64,000 nucleotides of DNA from Gammaproteobacteria bacterium (GCA_021772985.1 JAJFKX010000012.1:186001-250000); one strand, 5' to 3'. Positions 16,689-27,717 are shown, numbered from the stretch's first letter. The notes: generated by a model from the letters alone, not told the origin. Program-made: numbers and translations.

Positions 16689-16896
16689 TCTTAACTGGTA
16701 TTCCGGATATCATAGCAGGCATTTATCAGGATGCTGCACTTAATGAATATAGTATGCTAAGCTTCTGAAATATATAAATAAAAGGCAGCTTTTAATGGGC
16801 GCTTGGCGATCGGCTCAATTCTTTGTAGTATTTTGTAGCAGTTTGTCGCCTATACTCCTATGAAAACCGAAAATATCTGGGAATAGAGCGATCATT

Positions 16897-19212
16897 TTGT
16901 TTAGACAAAATTGGATAATCCGGTTAGCAGCTATTGCTGGGTTATGCTTTATCGCCAGTTGTCGGCCTGCTGATCCGTTCGGATGTAATCAAGCATTTGA
17001 GGCAGGCGACTATGAGCAGGCTGTAACGGCCTGTACCAATGCTTATGAGCAAACCGGGGCAGTTGGTTTTGGTGCAACTGTTGCAAAAGCTTATTTCCAG
17101 TTAGCTGATGTTGAGCAAATACAGACCTGGGCGGAGCGCTTAACGGGTACCGAAGTAGAACCCGGTTTATGGAGTGATGTCGGTTTGTTATTGCGTTCGA
17201 AAGGTGATTATCAGCTGGCTGATCAGGCTTACCAACGAGATTATGGCTTATACAGAGCCGCTGAAAATCACGTTGGAATATCGGCAAGCTTGTATTGGCG
17301 CGGGTATATGGCTTGGGAAACAGCCAGATATAAAGAAGCGCTGGAGCATGCTGCAGATGCATTTGAAAATGCTGAGCTTGCGCAAGACAGCAAGCTTGAA
17401 GTACGTGCGCTGTATCTTTTATCCAGCATTTTTCAGGATTTGGGCTATTACGACAGTGCTGAGCAGGTTTTGGGTTTTATCAAAAACCGTATTTCATCTG
17501 AGGATACTTCCTCGCAAATATACTTCCTGATCAACGAAGGTACTTTACGTATGCATCAGCAACGTATGGCGTTGGCACGTGACTCTTTGGAAAAGTCATT
17601 GAGTCTGGTGCGGGAAGATGAAAACCTTAGAACGGTGAGGTCAATATATCTTAATCTGATTGAAGCCAACTTATCCCTTAATAATGTGGACGATGCCGCG
17701 TTGCTTATGGACAAAGCATGGGATTTTATTGAGCCGGGTGGCCGAGTGCAAACGCCCATATTATTTAACCAGGCTCGGGTCCTGTTTGCTCAGGGTAAAT
17801 ATCAGGACTCCATGAATGTATTGCACAGTGCTTTGGAACGGGAAGATATTGCGCCGATCTGGCAATGGCAGATTCATGATCAGATAGGGCGTATTGCTGA
17901 AGAATTAAATGATGATCAGCTGCTGGCGACGGCATATGAGTCAGCGATCACCGCATTTGAAAATTTCCGCAGCTCATTGTTAGTCAATGAGCTCAAGTCT
18001 GCCTATTCGAACCGAAGACGCCAACCTTACGAAGCTTTATTTAATTACTATGCGTCTTCAGGCGATGTAATGCAGGCTTTTGATGTTATTGAAAGAGCCA
18101 AAGCGCGGACTTTTTTGGATGCTTATATTGATTCAATTAGTAATTTCCCTGAAAACCAGTCTGTCTCTACAGTGATTCAGCAAGCCCCGCAACGGTATGA
18201 CGCGCTAAGTAAAGTTTTGCCGGCAATGAATGCTTCGGCGATGGTTTCACCAAAAGACATTACTACCTCATTAAGATTGCTTGGTGATCGCAATGTGCTG
18301 GCTTACTTTGAAAGTGACAACCAGTTATGGTTGCTTGCAATTACTGAAGGTCAGGCTCAAATCAGTCAATTGCATTCTGAAATCGCTTCACTCAAACCAA
18401 TGATCGCTGATTTTGCCGGAAACCCGAATAATAAAGATGGTGCATTGACGCTGGGTAATATTTTGCTCCCGGATAACATGTTGCCGGCACCTGGTGAGCG
18501 TATATATATCGTACCTGACACTGTAATCGGGCAAGTCCCATTTGCAGCCTTGATACGCAATGGGCGATATCTTGTTGAAGATTACATAACCAGTTATGTG
18601 CCCAGCGTGAATGGTTTGCTGGCTATCGATGAAGACGACAACCAGCAATCGTTTGGCCCGGCGCTGGTCCTCGGTGATCCGCTGGATAACCTTCCTTCAG
18701 CAAAGGCTGAAGCGTTAGAGGTTGCCATGACCCTGAATGTTAAGCCGTATTTAGGTATTGATGCATCCAGTCAAGTTTTACTTGGTGGTGCCGATGCTTC
18801 GGTGCTGCACCTGGCAACTCATTCAGGTTTAAGTGCAAATGGTTCGTGGTTTAGTCTTGCAGATACCGAGTTTAATTCAGCATCGGTATTAACAGGCAAT
18901 GTTGCTCCCCGTTTGGTAACACTTGCCAGCTGCGCTTCAGCCTCCAGAAATAGAGGTGAGCTTTGGGGGTCGTTAGGGGCGGCATTCCTGACAGCGGGAA
19001 GTAAAGCGGTTTTGGCATCATTATGGACAGTGGATGATGATAAAACCAGAGAGTTTATGTCTGGTTTTTACAGCAATGATGTCAGGCGTGACCCAGCTGG
19101 ATCGCTTGCAAGCGTACAACGTGATTTTATTGTAAATGACAGGCCAGCTTCAGAGTGGTCTGCGTTTGTTTTATTAGGTTCAAATGGAACCTTTGATATG
19201 GGAGGAGATTGA
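16897..19212 (+). CDS. TPR-CHAT domain lipoprotein (caspase-fold peptidase-like)
   Basis: A 771-aa protein with a signal peptide ending in a lipobox (IASC), hence probably a periplasm-facing lipoprotein. Residues about 30-400 are helical with TPR-like pairs (for example AFEAGDYEQAVTACTNAYEQ, and YNEALEHA-type helices). The C-terminal third is a CHAT domain: catalytic His642 in HLATHSG and Cys679 in TLASCAS, then SLGAAFLTAGSKAVLASLW and the closing SAFVLLGSNG. CHAT proteins are cysteine proteases related to separase and caspases, although some are inactive scaffolds. The start is TTG at 16897. It is followed without a gap by a small membrane protein and then an ECF sigma/anti-sigma pair, suggesting a role in that signalling path. 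Confidence 0.85.
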   Translation: MFRQNWIIRLAAIAGLCFIASCRPADPFGCNQAFEAGDYEQAVTACTNAYEQTGAVGFGATVAKAYFQLADVEQIQTWAERLTGTEVEPGLWSDVGLLLRSKGDYQLADQAYQRDYGLYRAAENHVGISASLYWRGYMAWETARYKEALEHAADAFENAELAQDSKLEVRALYLLSSIFQDLGYYDSAEQVLGFIKNRISSEDTSSQIYFLINEGTLRMHQQRMALARDSLEKSLSLVREDENLRTVRSIYLNLIEANLSLNNVDDAALLMDKAWDFIEPGGRVQTPILFNQARVLFAQGKYQDSMNVLHSALEREDIAPIWQWQIHDQIGRIAEELNDDQLLATAYESAITAFENFRSSLLVNELKSAYSNRRRQPYEALFNYYASSGDVMQAFDVIERAKARTFLDAYIDSISNFPENQSVSTVIQQAPQRYDALSKVLPAMNASAMVSPKDITTSLRLLGDRNVLAYFESDNQLWLLAITEGQAQISQLHSEIASLKPMIADFAGNPNNKDGALTLGNILLPDNMLPAPGERIYIVPDTVIGQVPFAALIRNGRYLVEDYITSYVPSVNGLLAIDEDDNQQSFGPALVLGDPLDNLPSAKAEALEVAMTLNVKPYLGIDASSQVLLGGADASVLHLATHSGLSANGSWFSLADTEFNSASVLTGNVAPRLVTLASCASASRNRGELWGSLGAAFLTAGSKAVLASLWTVDDDKTREFMSGFYSNDVRRDPAGSLASVQRDFIVNDRPASEWSAFVLLGSNGTFDMGGD

Positions 19213-19461
19213 ATGAATCGTTTAATGAGTGCAATTATCGCTTTTGTGATAGGCATCGCAGTAGGTTTTATCATAAGCCAGTTAATTATTGGCACAGACG
19301 AAGCCTGTATAAATATGAGCTTGTCACAGGCAGGTATTGCTGGTACGACATCCCCAGCGCAGGTTTGGCAAGAGCTTGAGGAAAAATATGATGTGCAAGT
19401 TACATGTCTGGATAAAAATTGTCACGAAGTAACCATTTGCACTGTGCCACCACCAAATTAG
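19213..19461 (+). CDS. Small single-span membrane protein
   Basis: An 82-aa protein whose ATG follows the CHAT stop codon directly (TGAATG), so translation is almost certainly coupled. An N-terminal hydrophobic stretch (about residues 5-27) acts as an anchor or signal. The remaining roughly 55 residues hold three Cys in the mature part (CLDKNCHEVTIC), compatible with a disulfide in the periplasm. I do not recognise the family. Its position between the CHAT protein and the sigma factor suggests it works with them, for instance as a linker to the anti-sigma factor. Confidence 0.7.
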   Translation: MNRLMSAIIAFVIGIAVGFIISQLIIGTDEACINMSLSQAGIAGTTSPAQVWQELEEKYDVQVTCLDKNCHEVTICTVPPPN

Positions 19462-19470
19462 AGTACCCAA

Positions 19471-20055
19471 GTGCCAGCAACAATCACCCAATTTCAACCT
19501 GAAGCAAGAGCTATTGAAGCTTTATCTCGACAAAATTACCGAGAAGTTCTGGTGTTTATGATGGATAACTACGGCAATCAAATTTACCGCTTCTGCATTC
19601 AAATGCTGGCGGATAGGGAATCTGCCAAGGACGTCCACCAAATGGTTTTTGTTCAGGCGTATGAAGGTCTGGGTGCTTTTAAAGGTAAGTCGTCGTTACG
19701 TACCTGGCTATTCAGCATTGCACGTAACCGTTGTCTGGATGCATTAAAAATGACCCGCCGCAGAGAGCAACGGATAACTTTGGTAGAGGAATTGCCGGAA
19801 ACGTCGGTTGAGCAACAGACGGACTCGGAGGTATTCGAAGGTGATTTACGGCATAGATTGGCGGAGTGCCTGCGTAAGCTCGCACCCCATGTACGCAGCG
19901 CTGTGCTGCTGCGTTTTCAGGAAGAGAGATCTTATCGTGAAATGAGCCAGATAAGTTCAGAGAAACCAGCAACTATACAGGCACGTGTAGTCCGGGCATT
20001 GCCGGTGTTACGGCGTTGCCTGGAACAGGGAGGAGTAACCAGTGAATCATTGTGA
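19471..20055 (+). CDS. ECF-type RNA polymerase sigma factor
   Basis: A 194-aa sigma-70 family protein with only regions 2 and 4. Region 2 includes YRFCIQMLADRESAKDVHQM and the SSLRTWLFSIARNRCLDALK DNA-melting/-10 segment. Region 4 is in the C-terminal part (LRKLAPHVRSAVLLRFQEERSYREMS, then the recognition helix area). The start is GTG at 19471, 9 bp after the preceding stop; no strong ribosome site is visible, consistent with coupling. Its stop lies within the next gene (14-bp overlap), which encodes the probable cognate anti-sigma factor. Target promoters were not identified. Confidence 0.88.
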   Translation: MPATITQFQPEARAIEALSRQNYREVLVFMMDNYGNQIYRFCIQMLADRESAKDVHQMVFVQAYEGLGAFKGKSSLRTWLFSIARNRCLDALKMTRRREQRITLVEELPETSVEQQTDSEVFEGDLRHRLAECLRKLAPHVRSAVLLRFQEERSYREMSQISSEKPATIQARVVRALPVLRRCLEQGGVTSESL

Positions 20056-20710
20056 TCGATTTGAACAAGAAGGGTTATTAAAGTTAGAACAGGGGGACAG
20101 TCTTGATCAGCATTTTAGTGAATGTGATGACTGTATCGAAAAAGGGAATGCTTACCAAAAAATAAAGATGGAACTCAAGAACATGCAACAACAATGGAAA
20201 GCACCTCAGGGATGGCAGGATAGGGTTTGGGAAACAATTGCCGAGCGTCAACAAGGCGAATCGCAACGCTGGAAATGGGCTGTATGGCCAGCAGCAGCAG
20301 CTATTGCCGGCGTTTTTTTAATTTTCGGTGTTTTATTACCGAATAACGCTCAAGTATCCATTAATGTTTCGATCGAAAAGACCGAATCAGCAACCCGCGG
20401 CCTGAATGCCAAGCCAGGTGATGAACTGGTTATAGATGCTGAGATAGGCAATGCGGAAATTGCAGAATTATTGGTTTACCGAAATGATAATCAACTGGTG
20501 CTCAGGTGCAGCGACCAGCCGCCGTGTATACGCCGTGGCAGGCGCTTGCAGGCAACAGTTGAGTTACAAAGCATAGGTAACTATCAACCTGTATTGGTAC
20601 TGGCCGAGTCGGTGCTTCCCCAGCTTACCCATCAATTGGACGTGGATGCGAGCCTCGTCCTGGAGTCAGGGGCAAGAGTGGAGCTGGCCGAGCAAGTATC
20701 AGTGTACTAA
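20042..20710 (+). CDS. Putative zinc-type transmembrane anti-sigma factor
   Basis: A 222-aa protein starting with GTG inside the sigma gene. The N-terminal cytoplasmic part has a zinc anti-sigma signature, His24-x3-Cys28-x2-Cys31 (HFSECDDC), followed by a helical region. A single membrane helix lies at about residues 79-100, and the C-terminal 120 residues are beta-rich and would face the periplasm, where the CHAT lipoprotein is predicted to be. This topology allows an outside signal to release the sigma factor, for example by proteolysis. The zinc motif lacks further Cys. The assignment rests on motif, topology and gene order. Confidence 0.75.
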   Translation: MNHCDRFEQEGLLKLEQGDSLDQHFSECDDCIEKGNAYQKIKMELKNMQQQWKAPQGWQDRVWETIAERQQGESQRWKWAVWPAAAAIAGVFLIFGVLLPNNAQVSINVSIEKTESATRGLNAKPGDELVIDAEIGNAEIAELLVYRNDNQLVLRCSDQPPCIRRGRRLQATVELQSIGNYQPVLVLAESVLPQLTHQLDVDASLVLESGARVELAEQVSVY

Positions 20711-20731: not shown

Positions 20732-20776
20732 GGCGGAGTCCTGGGTTAACGGCCGGTAAACTCCGCCTGTCTTTTT
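20732..20776 (+). terminator. Probable terminator after the anti-sigma gene
   Basis: An 8-bp stem GGCGGAGT / ACTCCGCC (20732-20739 and 20760-20767) with a 20-bp spacer is followed by TGTCTTTTTT. It sits at the convergent junction and overlaps the last codons of the enoyl-CoA hydratase gene on the other strand. The long loop makes it weaker than a classical terminator. Confidence 0.5.
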
Positions 20777-21528
20777 TCTAAAAATGCACTTGTGCCTTCA
20801 CGCATGTCGTGGGTGCTGCAACATAGCGCAAAAAGCTGAGTCTCCATATCCAGTGCTGCATTCAATGGTAAATCAGCACCGTGCTGGATAATATGCAAAA
20901 TATGTTGCATGGCAATAGGCGCAGAGCCGGCCATGGTGGCTGCAAGTTTGTCGGCTTGATCCTGTAGTTCAGCTTGATTAAACAACTTGCTGACCAGGTT
21001 CAATTGCAATGCATCTTGGCCGCTGATCGGGTTGCCGGTTAAGGTCATTTCCAGGGCTTTGGCACGGCCCACCATACGCACCAGGCGTTGAGTACCACCA
21101 AAGCCGGGGATCACTCCAAGTTTTATTTCTGGCAAGCCGAAACGAGCATTATCTGATGCCAATCGGATCGAGCAGGCCAGTGCCAGTTCACAACCACCAC
21201 CGAGTGCAAAACCATTTACAGCAGCTATCACCGGCTTCCCCAGGTTTTCAATTTGCAACATCAATTGTTGGCCAAGCTCAGAAAAATCTTTGGCTTCCAT
21301 GGGTGAAAGCTGGTTGATTTCGCTGATGTCTGCGCCTGCTACAAAAGCTTTTTCCCCAGATCCGGTCAATACGACAACCCGAGTTGCTTCATCGTTAGCA
21401 GCATCTTCAAAGGCCTGGCCAAGTTCCAGCAACGTATCCAGATTCAAGGCATTGAGTTTGTCAGGGCGATTAACGGTGATACGCATAACCGCATTATTTG
21501 ATGAAGTCAGAATGTTATTGAAACCCAT
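20746..21528 (-). CDS. Enoyl-CoA hydratase
   Basis: Crotonase-fold protein (260 aa) expected to hydrate trans-2-enoyl-CoA in fatty or amino acid oxidation. It shows AFVAGADISE, the oxyanion-hole segment NGFALGGGCELALAC with the first catalytic Glu equivalent nearby, and PEIKLGVIPGFGGTQRL carrying the second catalytic Glu. Both acidic positions of true hydratases appear to be kept. The start at 21528 is chosen because a GGAA ribosome site precedes it; seven more codons upstream are open. It stands alone between the anti-sigma gene (convergent) and the psp operon. Confidence 0.88.
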   Translation of the reverse strand: MGFNNILTSSNNAVMRITVNRPDKLNALNLDTLLELGQAFEDAANDEATRVVVLTGSGEKAFVAGADISEINQLSPMEAKDFSELGQQLMLQIENLGKPVIAAVNGFALGGGCELALACSIRLASDNARFGLPEIKLGVIPGFGGTQRLVRMVGRAKALEMTLTGNPISGQDALQLNLVSKLFNQAELQDQADKLAATMAGSAPIAMQHILHIIQHGADLPLNAALDMETQLFALCCSTHDMREGTSAFLEKRQAEFTGR

Positions 21529-22136: not shown

Positions 22137-22532
22137 CTAATCTTTCAGTTGACGATCAATCTCGTATTCCTTCGAGGTCATGTAACTTTCCATACGTTGC
22201 AAGCGCAATTCCAGGTCACGGAACCGATGGCGCAATTCGCCAAACAAGTTTTTTGGCTGCTGTGACATGTCACGCCAGAATGTTTCCTGTTCCTTATTTT
22301 GATAAAGGTCATCCGGGCGGACCGGCAATAAAATTGCCAGCGCTATGTAGCCAAGAACCACAAACGGGGTAAACGGAATGGCAGCTACACATGTCACTAC
22401 ACGTACTGCATTACGCTGAAAGCCAAAATAATCTGCCAACCCAGCGCATACGCCGGCGATTATCCGGTGCTCGCGGTTACGATAAAGCCGATGTGGATTT
22501 TGTTCTCTTCGATGGTGGTGTTTAGCTTTCAT
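22137..22532 (-). CDS. pspC: Phage shock protein C
   Basis: Inner-membrane protein of 131 aa. A PspC domain begins at about residue 14 (HRLYRNREHRIIAGVCAGLADYFG) with the re-entrant or membrane helix that follows (TCVAAIPFTPFVVLGYIALAILLPV). The C-terminal region is helical and charged (LRHRFRDLELRLQRMESYM), as in PspC of gammaproteobacteria. With PspB it senses envelope damage and pulls PspA from its effector PspF. The start overlaps the pspB stop by 4 bp, giving tight coupling. Confidence 0.92.
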   Translation of the reverse strand: MKAKHHHRREQNPHRLYRNREHRIIAGVCAGLADYFGFQRNAVRVVTCVAAIPFTPFVVLGYIALAILLPVRPDDLYQNKEQETFWRDMSQQPKNLFGELRHRFRDLELRLQRMESYMTSKEYEIDRQLKD

Positions 22533-22747
22533 GAGCGTCCTCTCCAGCTGGGATGATCAGCGTCCAAGATGCGTTCCAATGAATTAATCCGGTCTTCCAT
22601 TTTGCGTGTAGACTCCCAGATTTCACTTAACATTGTCTCATCTTCGTTAGTCAAGCCACGCGAACTGCGCATCTTGGCTATGTAGTGGAATATGATCCAC
22701 AGTGGTACCACTACAGTTAAAAATAAAATTCCAAATACTTCAGACAT
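22529..22747 (-). CDS. pspB: Phage shock protein B
   Basis: A 72-aa inner-membrane protein with one N-terminal helix (FGILFLTVVVPLWIIFHYI) and a cytoplasmic amphipathic helix with a leucine-zipper-like pattern (LSEIWESTRKMEDRINSLERIL), the classic PspB layout. It partners with PspC in sensing. It lies 69 bp after pspA and overlaps pspC. Sequence and operon context agree. Confidence 0.92.
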   Translation of the reverse strand: MSEVFGILFLTVVVPLWIIFHYIAKMRSSRGLTNEDETMLSEIWESTRKMEDRINSLERILDADHPSWRGRS

Positions 22748-22816
22748 TCAAGCTCTCCAATCTATTCACGAAATTGGTAACCGTCACACGATTACCAACA
22801 TGTGCTGGTGACGCAG

Positions 22817-23524
22817 TTATTTCTTGGTGGCGACCACTGGTTCGGCTTTAGGCGCACTACCACCAGATTTCCGTTTGGCTTTCAGGGCGGCCAGTTCGTC
22901 TGCAACCTCATCGGCATTAGCCAAGTCATCGATCTCGTCAGAAACCGTCCGTGGTCGGCGACCAAGGTCCATGGCTTCACCACGTGCTTCAACATCTTCG
23001 ATTCGACGTTCAGCACTTTCAAAGCGAAACATAATGTCTTCAATCTTATCGCTATGCACCACTTCACGGGCCTTCAATGTTGTGGTGGCATGTTTTTGGC
23101 GCATAACCAGGCTACGTTGGCGATTTTTGGCATCTTGCAGCTTGGCCTGTAGCCGGCCGATGTCTTCATTGAAGCGTGTTAACTGTTCTTCCAGCAACTT
23201 GACTTCGTCGGTTACTGCATCTACACGTTGTTGCAATTGACGTTTTTCCAACAACGCTGACTGGGCTAAATCTTCACGGTCTTTATCCAGTGCCAGCTCA
23301 GCCTTGCGCTCCCATTCCAGTACTTGTTTTTCCAAACGGGTCAGCAGACGGCTGCGTTCTTTTTTCTCAGCAATACATTTGGCGGCGCTGGAGCGCAACT
23401 CTACCAAAGTGTCCTCCATTTCCTGGATCATCAGTCGGATAATCTTTTCCGGATCTTCGGCTTTTTCCAGTACCGCATTGATATTTGAATTGATAATATC
23501 GCCTAATCTTGAAAATACGCCCAT
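22817..23524 (-). CDS. pspA: Phage shock protein A
   Basis: ESCRT-III-like peripheral membrane protein (235 aa) that both repairs stressed membranes and restrains the activator PspF. The amphipathic N-terminus MGVFSRLGDIINSNINAVL is canonical, followed by EDPEKIIRLMIQEMEDTL and long coiled-coil helices with many charged residues; the C-terminal tail (SGGSAPKAEPVVATKK) extends past the usual end. The ATG at 23524 is chosen over an upstream one because GGAG precedes it by 5 bp and the family starts at this MGVF. First gene of the psp operon, driven by a sigma-54 promoter just upstream. Confidence 0.95.
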   Translation of the reverse strand: MGVFSRLGDIINSNINAVLEKAEDPEKIIRLMIQEMEDTLVELRSSAAKCIAEKKERSRLLTRLEKQVLEWERKAELALDKDREDLAQSALLEKRQLQQRVDAVTDEVKLLEEQLTRFNEDIGRLQAKLQDAKNRQRSLVMRQKHATTTLKAREVVHSDKIEDIMFRFESAERRIEDVEARGEAMDLGRRPRTVSDEIDDLANADEVADELAALKAKRKSGGSAPKAEPVVATKK

Positions 23525-23559
23525 AGTGTTCTCCATTTTGGGTTGTTTGCAAATATACA

Positions 23560-23575
23560 TGCAATAACTGTGCCA
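23560..23575 (-). promoter_or_regulatory. Sigma-54 promoter of the psp operon
   Basis: Read on the minus strand the site is TGGCACAGTTATTGCA, a full match to the -24/-12 consensus TGGCACRNNNNTTGCW. Transcription would start roughly 12 bp downstream, about 25 bp before the pspA ATG. Sigma-54 control by PspF is the known rule for psp operons. No pspF gene is adjacent: the divergent neighbour encodes an FKBP. Confidence 0.88.
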
Positions 23576-27252: not shown

Positions 27253-27717
27253 TCAGTAACCAGTAGACAACACAATTGCCGCACCATTCCCATGAAATCC
27301 AAATCCGTAGAAACTGGTGCCATACCGGCGGTGCCCGTGATGCCCACGGTTCCCGCGATAGCCACGGTTCCCGCGATAACTACGGTTCCCGCGATAGCTA
27401 CGGTTCCCACGATAGCTACGGTTCCCACGATAACTACGGTTCCCACGATAACTACGGTGGCTTTTGCGAGAACCGTGCCGATAATTAGAATGCCCACGAT
27501 AGCTGTCACGGTTATAATAACCATGGCGTTTGCGGTGTTTGTAACCATTGCGATGGCCATAATGGCTTTGTTGGTAGCTGCCATGACCGCTATAGCTATA
27601 ACCGTTGTAATGTCCTTTGTGCCCATAACTGTTTGCTGCGGCCGGGTTAGCCAGCAGGCCTAGGCTGAAGACTAGCGCCAAAGCGCCAATGAAATGTGCT
27701 GATTTTGTTCTCTTCAT
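27253..27717 (-). CDS. Secreted Tyr/Arg/Gly/His-rich repeat protein
   Basis: A 154-aa protein: signal peptide (about residues 1-29, ANPAAANS cleavage area), then a Tyr/Gly/His/Ser-rich region, then residues 89-125 made of six tandem copies of S/G-YRGNR, then a His/Arg stretch and a hydrophobic tip AAIVLSTGY. Very basic and low in complexity, as in secreted adhesive, RNA- or polyanion-binding proteins, but no function can be named. The start has GGAGG 8 bp upstream, and a strong terminator follows. The DNA repeat keeps other frames open too; this frame is chosen for its signal peptide and ribosome site. Confidence 0.75.
   Translation of the reverse strand: MKRTKSAHFIGALALVFSLGLLANPAAANSYGHKGHYNGYSYSGHGSYQQSHYGHRNGYKHRKRHGYYNRDSYRGHSNYRHGSRKSHRSYRGNRSYRGNRSYRGNRSYRGNRSYRGNRGYRGNRGHHGHRRYGTSFYGFGFHGNGAAIVLSTGY
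27348..27455 (-). repeat. 18-bp tandem repeat, six copies
   Basis: Six adjacent 18-bp units (on the + strand GGTTCCCGCGATAGCCAC and near-copies) differ at two or three positions, mostly CGC/CAC and AGC/AAC. The changes group the first three and last three units, suggesting stepwise duplication. In the coding strand they give the S-Y-R-G-N-R peptide repeat. Copy number may vary between strains. Confidence 0.9.

Follow-up and report, generated by a model that had tools for sequence, protein, structure and literature searches.

In the type III-E CRISPR system Craspase, the TPR-CHAT protein Csx29 cuts Csx30, the inhibitor of CASP-sigma (PMC10028731), and in the type III CRISPR SAVED-Lon system CalpS is released when CalpL, a protease of the Lon family, cleaves CalpT (PMC11229360). 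Genes for CHAT proteins, subtilases and carboxypeptidases also occur in the genetic context of ECF54 sigma factors, which belong to the extracytoplasmic function (ECF) type and for which the review PMC8999054 (citing Casas-Pastor 2021) suggests that control is proteolytic and involves no anti-sigma factor. Here, we describe a four-gene locus encoding a TPR-CHAT lipoprotein, a small cysteine-containing membrane protein, an ECF sigma factor and a membrane anti-sigma factor, which lies at positions 16897-20710 of a 64,000-nucleotide stretch, referred to as the window, from Gammaproteobacteria bacterium (GCA_021772985.1, JAJFKX010000012.1:186001-250000). The analysis shows this gene set, the catalytic, export and topology signatures of its products, and that CHAT and the sigma/anti-sigma pair are coupled in evolution. 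It appears very probable that CHAT and the pair are functionally linked, and it is possible, with a probability of roughly 0.45, that an exported caspase-fold protease is coupled, as an extracytoplasmic counterpart of Csx29-Csx30-CASP-sigma, to a membrane anti-sigma/sigma switch through a complete chain that includes cleavage of the anti-sigma factor. Bacterial CHAT proteases are abundant, few of their substrates are known, and their role outside CRISPR loci is largely open; a genomic partner narrows the search for a CHAT substrate to the anti-sigma factor.

The locus resembles Craspase in that a TPR-CHAT protein is encoded together with a sigma factor and its inhibitor. However, neither gRAMP/Cas7-11 nor a CRISPR array lies near it: no array was found in the 8-30 kb scanned around the locus, no cas-like gene was present among the flanking genes scanned, and PADLOC gave zero defence matches among the proteins scanned at the locus. 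Furthermore, the window's CHAT protein is predicted to be exported, and a zinc-type anti-sigma factor in the membrane takes the place of the soluble inhibitor Csx30, and cleavage is only inferred in the window. The protein is not classed as an orthologue of Csx29, as the NCBIfam Csx29 model scores 17 bits against a cut-off of 300 and the window protein carries an export signal. The CalpL-CalpT-CalpS system is similar in that a protease cuts an anti-sigma factor and thereby releases the sigma factor, but CalpL is a Lon-family protease activated by cyclic tetraadenylate (cA4) and not an exported caspase fold. ECF54 sigma factors likewise have CHAT proteins encoded in their neighbourhood, but the review PMC8999054 reports them without an anti-sigma factor and with an actinobacterial example, whereas the anti-sigma gene in the window overlaps the sigma gene. 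Finally, the DegS/RseP-RseA-sigmaE pathway also relies on a membrane anti-sigma factor with an extracytoplasmic domain, and an RseP gene is present in the window genome (TIGR00054, E=1e-103); however, in the window the candidate for the role of site-1 protease is a lipoprotein of the caspase fold whose gene accompanies those of the pair, whereas DegS is a PDZ serine protease. CHAT in the vicinity of an ECF sigma factor is therefore already known from ECF54. The literature searches returned no account of an exported CHAT protease that is paired with a membrane anti-sigma factor; the Casas-Pastor 2021 classification may already list a group that combines CHAT with an anti-sigma factor.

The first protein of the locus matches Pfam CHAT (PF12770) at residues 519-762 (E=2.5e-39) and also contains TPRs. 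Both its catalytic dyad, His642/Cys679, and its lipobox Cys22 (IASC, IAGC and FTAC, from sequence only) are kept in all three orthologues. It is thus classed as an exported, lipid-anchored protein with a predicted cysteine protease of the caspase fold, and the TPRs are probably the part that recognizes a signal or a partner; a plasmid search with this protein returned distant TPR-CHATs only. The sigma factor consists of regions 2 and 4 (Sigma70_r2, 2.7e-14; Sigma70_r4_2, 3.5e-7; Pfam), with region 3 absent, matches the sigma70-ECF family of NCBIfam and has SigH, SigW and RpoE as its nearest solved structures, and it is assigned to the ECF (group 4) sigma factors. The anti-sigma factor is predicted to comprise a zinc-type N-terminal domain, one transmembrane segment (about residues 80-100) and an extracytoplasmic domain of approx. 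120 amino acids. Its HX3CX2C motif (H24-x3-C28-x2-C31) is kept in three of three orthologues and its match to NCBIfam NF052375 (E=3e-11) is under that model's cut-off; by motif, adjacency to the sigma gene and single transmembrane segment, it is identified as a zinc-type (ZAS) membrane anti-sigma factor. The original prediction, based on the window alone, had described four joined genes with a TGAATG junction and a sigma/anti-sigma overlap, a CHAT lipoprotein with this dyad, and a zinc-type transmembrane anti-sigma factor with an extracytoplasmic domain, and all of these features were recovered.

A close CHAT homologue was present in 2 of 101 relatives, namely the window genome and a congener (G001, the metagenome-assembled genome (MAG) OFTM396, JAJFKY010000009.1), and a search of the relatives' contigs with N-terminal patterns recovered the congener alone. 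In the congener, all four genes recur in the same order and among the same neighbours (identities of 53% for CHAT, 29% for the small protein, 67% for sigma and 55% for anti-sigma), and thus the arrangement noticed in the window is found in a second genome. When 369 genomes sampled evenly from the class were searched, the CHAT profile detected two of them, G000 and G330, the latter a gammaproteobacterium outside the window's order; the anti-sigma profile detected exactly the same two, although it was built with the G330 sequence included, so that its informative part is the absence elsewhere. Among 296 genomes of the order of G330, nothing was found beyond G330 itself. In G330, the CHAT (29% identity), sigma (48%) and anti-sigma (35%) genes are adjacent and rearranged, with sigma and anti-sigma running toward CHAT in a convergent layout. 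An independent occurrence of the CHAT gene and the sigma pair, against which the original prediction was to be judged, was looked for and not found, as the families co-occur in the sampled genomes, even in rearranged G330. Because the CHAT-sigma-anti-sigma partnership outlasts rearrangement, an accidental operon is disfavoured, and the association of the CHAT gene with the sigma pair is not due to chance.

The coupling extends beyond these orthologues. Of the six CHAT genes in the window genome, the one described here is not the only one near an ECF sigma gene: three others lie within 1.5 kb of such a gene, and for a fourth the distance is 5.1 kb. CHAT is present in 66 of 151 relatives; surroundings of up to 14 kb were fetched, and 126 CHAT genes of the window's order were scored with custom profile hidden Markov models (HMMs). 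Many of the searched genomes seem to be drafts or MAGs, and contig ends lie close to several of the CHAT genes. An ECF sigma gene was located within 5 kb of 71 of the 126 (56%), which is approx. 12-fold higher than the 4.8% expected from a sigma-gene density of one per approx. 229 kb. A phylum-wide control sample outside the order gave only 4 of 40 (Fisher p=1e-7), and thus the coupling is a characteristic of the order and is neither a general CHAT trait nor an artefact of the method. At 54 of the 71 linked loci, a gene for a single-transmembrane protein of approx. 200-300 amino acids, called anti-sigma-like by position and hydropathy and not by a family profile, directly follows the sigma gene; most of these proteins are of the non-zinc type, and the zinc motif occurs in seven. 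The sigma-linked members are dispersed throughout the CHAT tree, where well-supported branches force at least 10 changes, which indicates repeated gain or loss of the linkage. It could be argued that CHAT and the sigma pair are mere neighbours, for example co-carried on a transferred segment without a functional link, as the patchy distribution of the trio over three genomes would allow. However, this is very improbable given that the trio stays together across rearrangement and orders, and that the CHAT-ECF association throughout the order exceeds expectation so strongly and is spread over the CHAT tree.

With regard to layout, the sigma gene precedes CHAT on the same strand in 49 of the 71 linked cases, which is the usual arrangement, and lies downstream on the same strand in 12. 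The gene order of the window, described as atypical in the original prediction, is indeed that of a minority; it is not unique, since CHAT, sigma and anti-sigma follow one another also at L154 (with a 27-nucleotide gap) and L216, which represent other families and combine a different sigma lineage with an anti-sigma factor of the non-zinc type. Further sets of sigma, anti-sigma and exported TPR-CHAT genes, with other sigma lineages, are found in the window genome itself (L063, L065 and L066 on contigs C28, C60 and C38, respectively), and L066 carries two sigma-like genes in tandem. An open reading frame of 591 amino acids that joins an ECF sigma factor to CHAT (L138:1490-3265) was rejected as evidence of a fusion, because L134, with a near-identical CHAT part, has separate genes; the fused frame is likely an assembly or deletion artefact.

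A strict signal-peptide rule with a false-positive rate of 1-2% marks 49 of 70 sigma-linked CHATs as exported, and most of the remaining ones, judged by eye, also begin with a signal sequence; this places the protease and the sensor domain of the anti-sigma factor in a common compartment. Within this context, the anti-sigma factor would tether sigma at the inner membrane via its cytoplasmic zinc domain. An envelope cue would activate CHAT, which would then take over the site-1 role of DegS by cleaving the anti-sigma factor in its extracytoplasmic domain, and the site-2 protease RseP, whose gene is present, would complete the cleavage. The released sigma factor might transcribe its own operon and possibly a few other genes, and the small cysteine-rich membrane protein could perhaps serve as a regulator or co-substrate. 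We infer that the anti-sigma factor is the target of CHAT from the common compartment, from the adjacency of CHAT to the pair through rearrangement, from a dyad that is intact in every linked CHAT, from the presence of RseP to complete the cleavage, and from the precedents of Csx29-Csx30-CASP-sigma and CalpL-CalpT-CalpS. The reading offered in the original prediction, in which CHAT would cut the anti-sigma factor or another envelope protein and so activate transcription, is partly supported.

Several points weigh against this scheme. Orthologues of the trio come from three genomes only, and CHAT and sigma, compared over all pairs, show weak co-divergence (p of approx. 0.03 in a within-genome shuffle). 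His and Cys are kept in 71 of 71 linked and 39 of 55 unlinked CHATs (HMM-based count), with both residues lost in the other 16, but these losses belong to one clade and one event, so the comparison overstates independence. An Arg at position +2 of the lipoprotein may direct it to the outer membrane, apart from the anti-sigma factor. The AlphaFold2 models, calculated from three-sequence alignments, are both too poor for use (pLDDT of 54 for CHAT, with the CHAT domain mostly below 50, and of 42 for the anti-sigma factor), and the sequence analysis revealed no CHAT cleavage site or substrate. As for the 16 proteins lacking the dyad (L181, L182, L187, L188, L191, L195-L197, L200, L204-L206, L209-L211 and L215), Pro replaces His and Cys is lost, most have a signal sequence, and none has a nearby sigma gene; the five neighbourhoods inspected contain FHA-like proteins and repeated small proteins with one transmembrane segment. 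This CHAT-like clade is probably inactive.

A different role for CHAT is almost as likely as that of a protease acting on the anti-sigma factor, and the data, which both fit nearly equally well, do not separate the two. The anti-sigma factor might sense the cue itself or via DegS/RseP, and the freed sigma factor would induce the operon, so that CHAT and the small cysteine-containing protein would be the output, an envelope effector that, for example, degrades damaged or foreign proteins. ECF sigma factors commonly autoregulate their own operon, and the locus appears to form a single transcription unit headed by CHAT, because the upstream gene, of the TfoX_N type, is divergent and a terminator-like hairpin directly follows the anti-sigma stop codon (fold of -22.9 kcal/mol, z=-3.59); a consensus terminator scan did not include this hairpin among its listed terminators. 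Catalytic conservation and export would suit an effector equally well, and a promoter-like block that the congener shares lies directly before CHAT. This 12-mer, GTCGCCTATACT, is identical in the upstream region of the congener's CHAT, and its core, GTCGCCTA, also precedes the sigma gene of G330; the two occurrences hint at autoregulation, but by our estimate the chance of such sharing is a few per cent. For the shared promoter motif that the original prediction suggested looking for in the operon and elsewhere, there is a weak candidate, but not one that is enriched throughout the genome: the 12-mer is enriched in neither of two genomes (13 and 9 matches vs. 24 and 35 for the reversed control), the search yielded no regulon, and a sigma-70 promoter scan remained at chance level. 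However, CHAT is convergent with sigma/anti-sigma in G330, where the core stands before sigma and not before CHAT, which speaks weakly against CHAT as an output. Moreover, CHAT pairs with sigma/anti-sigma itself, whereas mere regulon members need not remain adjacent.

It is also conceivable, albeit unlikely, that CHAT controls the pair while leaving the anti-sigma factor uncut: its TPRs might provide a scaffold, it might act as a binding partner, or it might cleave the small protein, which would then act on the anti-sigma factor. This protein, coupled to CHAT as the next gene of the operon, has one N-terminal transmembrane segment and four Cys in its C-terminal part, all of which are kept in the congener in spite of the low identity given above; however, it is absent from G330. 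Small secreted Cys-bearing proteins are encoded within approx. 60 nucleotides of CHAT at several other sigma-linked loci (L112, L115-L117, L121, L133, L137, L179 and L194), which would suit such a role, but a crude count gave no enrichment over controls. In G330, the gene for a cysteine-rich lipoprotein of 196 amino acids follows CHAT on the same strand (L219:3018-3608), at the position of the small gene in the window, and tblastn detected no similarity between the two proteins.

If CHAT does cleave the anti-sigma factor, the site-1 proteases that open sigma/anti-sigma locks, among them DegS, would come to include caspase-like enzymes, and Craspase signalling would be a variation on a wider envelope theme. 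A broader proposal is somewhat more doubtful than the scheme for this locus, namely that within one order of Gammaproteobacteria CHAT serves membrane anti-sigma factors as their dedicated site-1 protease, forming a widespread CRISPR-independent extracytoplasmic class, of which the Csx29-Csx30-CASP-sigma system of Craspase would be a cytoplasmic, RNA-triggered analogue or relative.

Table 1. Features of the CHAT-sigma/anti-sigma locus (positions in the window)
Feature	Position	Strand	Remarks
12-mer GTCGCCTATACT	16845-16856	+	upstream of CHAT; candidate promoter element, weak evidence
CHAT gene	16897-19212	+	771 amino acids, TTG start
Small Cys protein gene	19213-19461	+	82 amino acids, TGAATG junction with CHAT gene, GGAGGA upstream
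ECF sigma gene	19471-20055	+	194 amino acids, GTG start, 9-nucleotide gap after small protein gene
Anti-sigma gene	20042-20710	+	222 amino acids, GTG start, 14-nucleotide overlap with sigma gene
Terminator-like hairpin and T-run	20732-20777	+	GGCGGAGT...ACTCCGCC then TTTTTT

The genes flanking the locus (Table 1) are ordinary: sugar-nucleotide genes, a UDG-superfamily protein and a TonB-C protein, and then enoyl-CoA hydratase, pspC, pspB and pspA. The psp genes (22137-23560), located past the enoyl-CoA hydratase gene, follow the operon not only in the window genome but also in the congener and constitute a second envelope-stress set in its vicinity. Further downstream, at 27319-27476, there is an array of 18-nucleotide direct repeats in six overlapping copies of 68 nucleotides; as the unit is a multiple of three, it is possibly a coding repeat of a hexapeptide.

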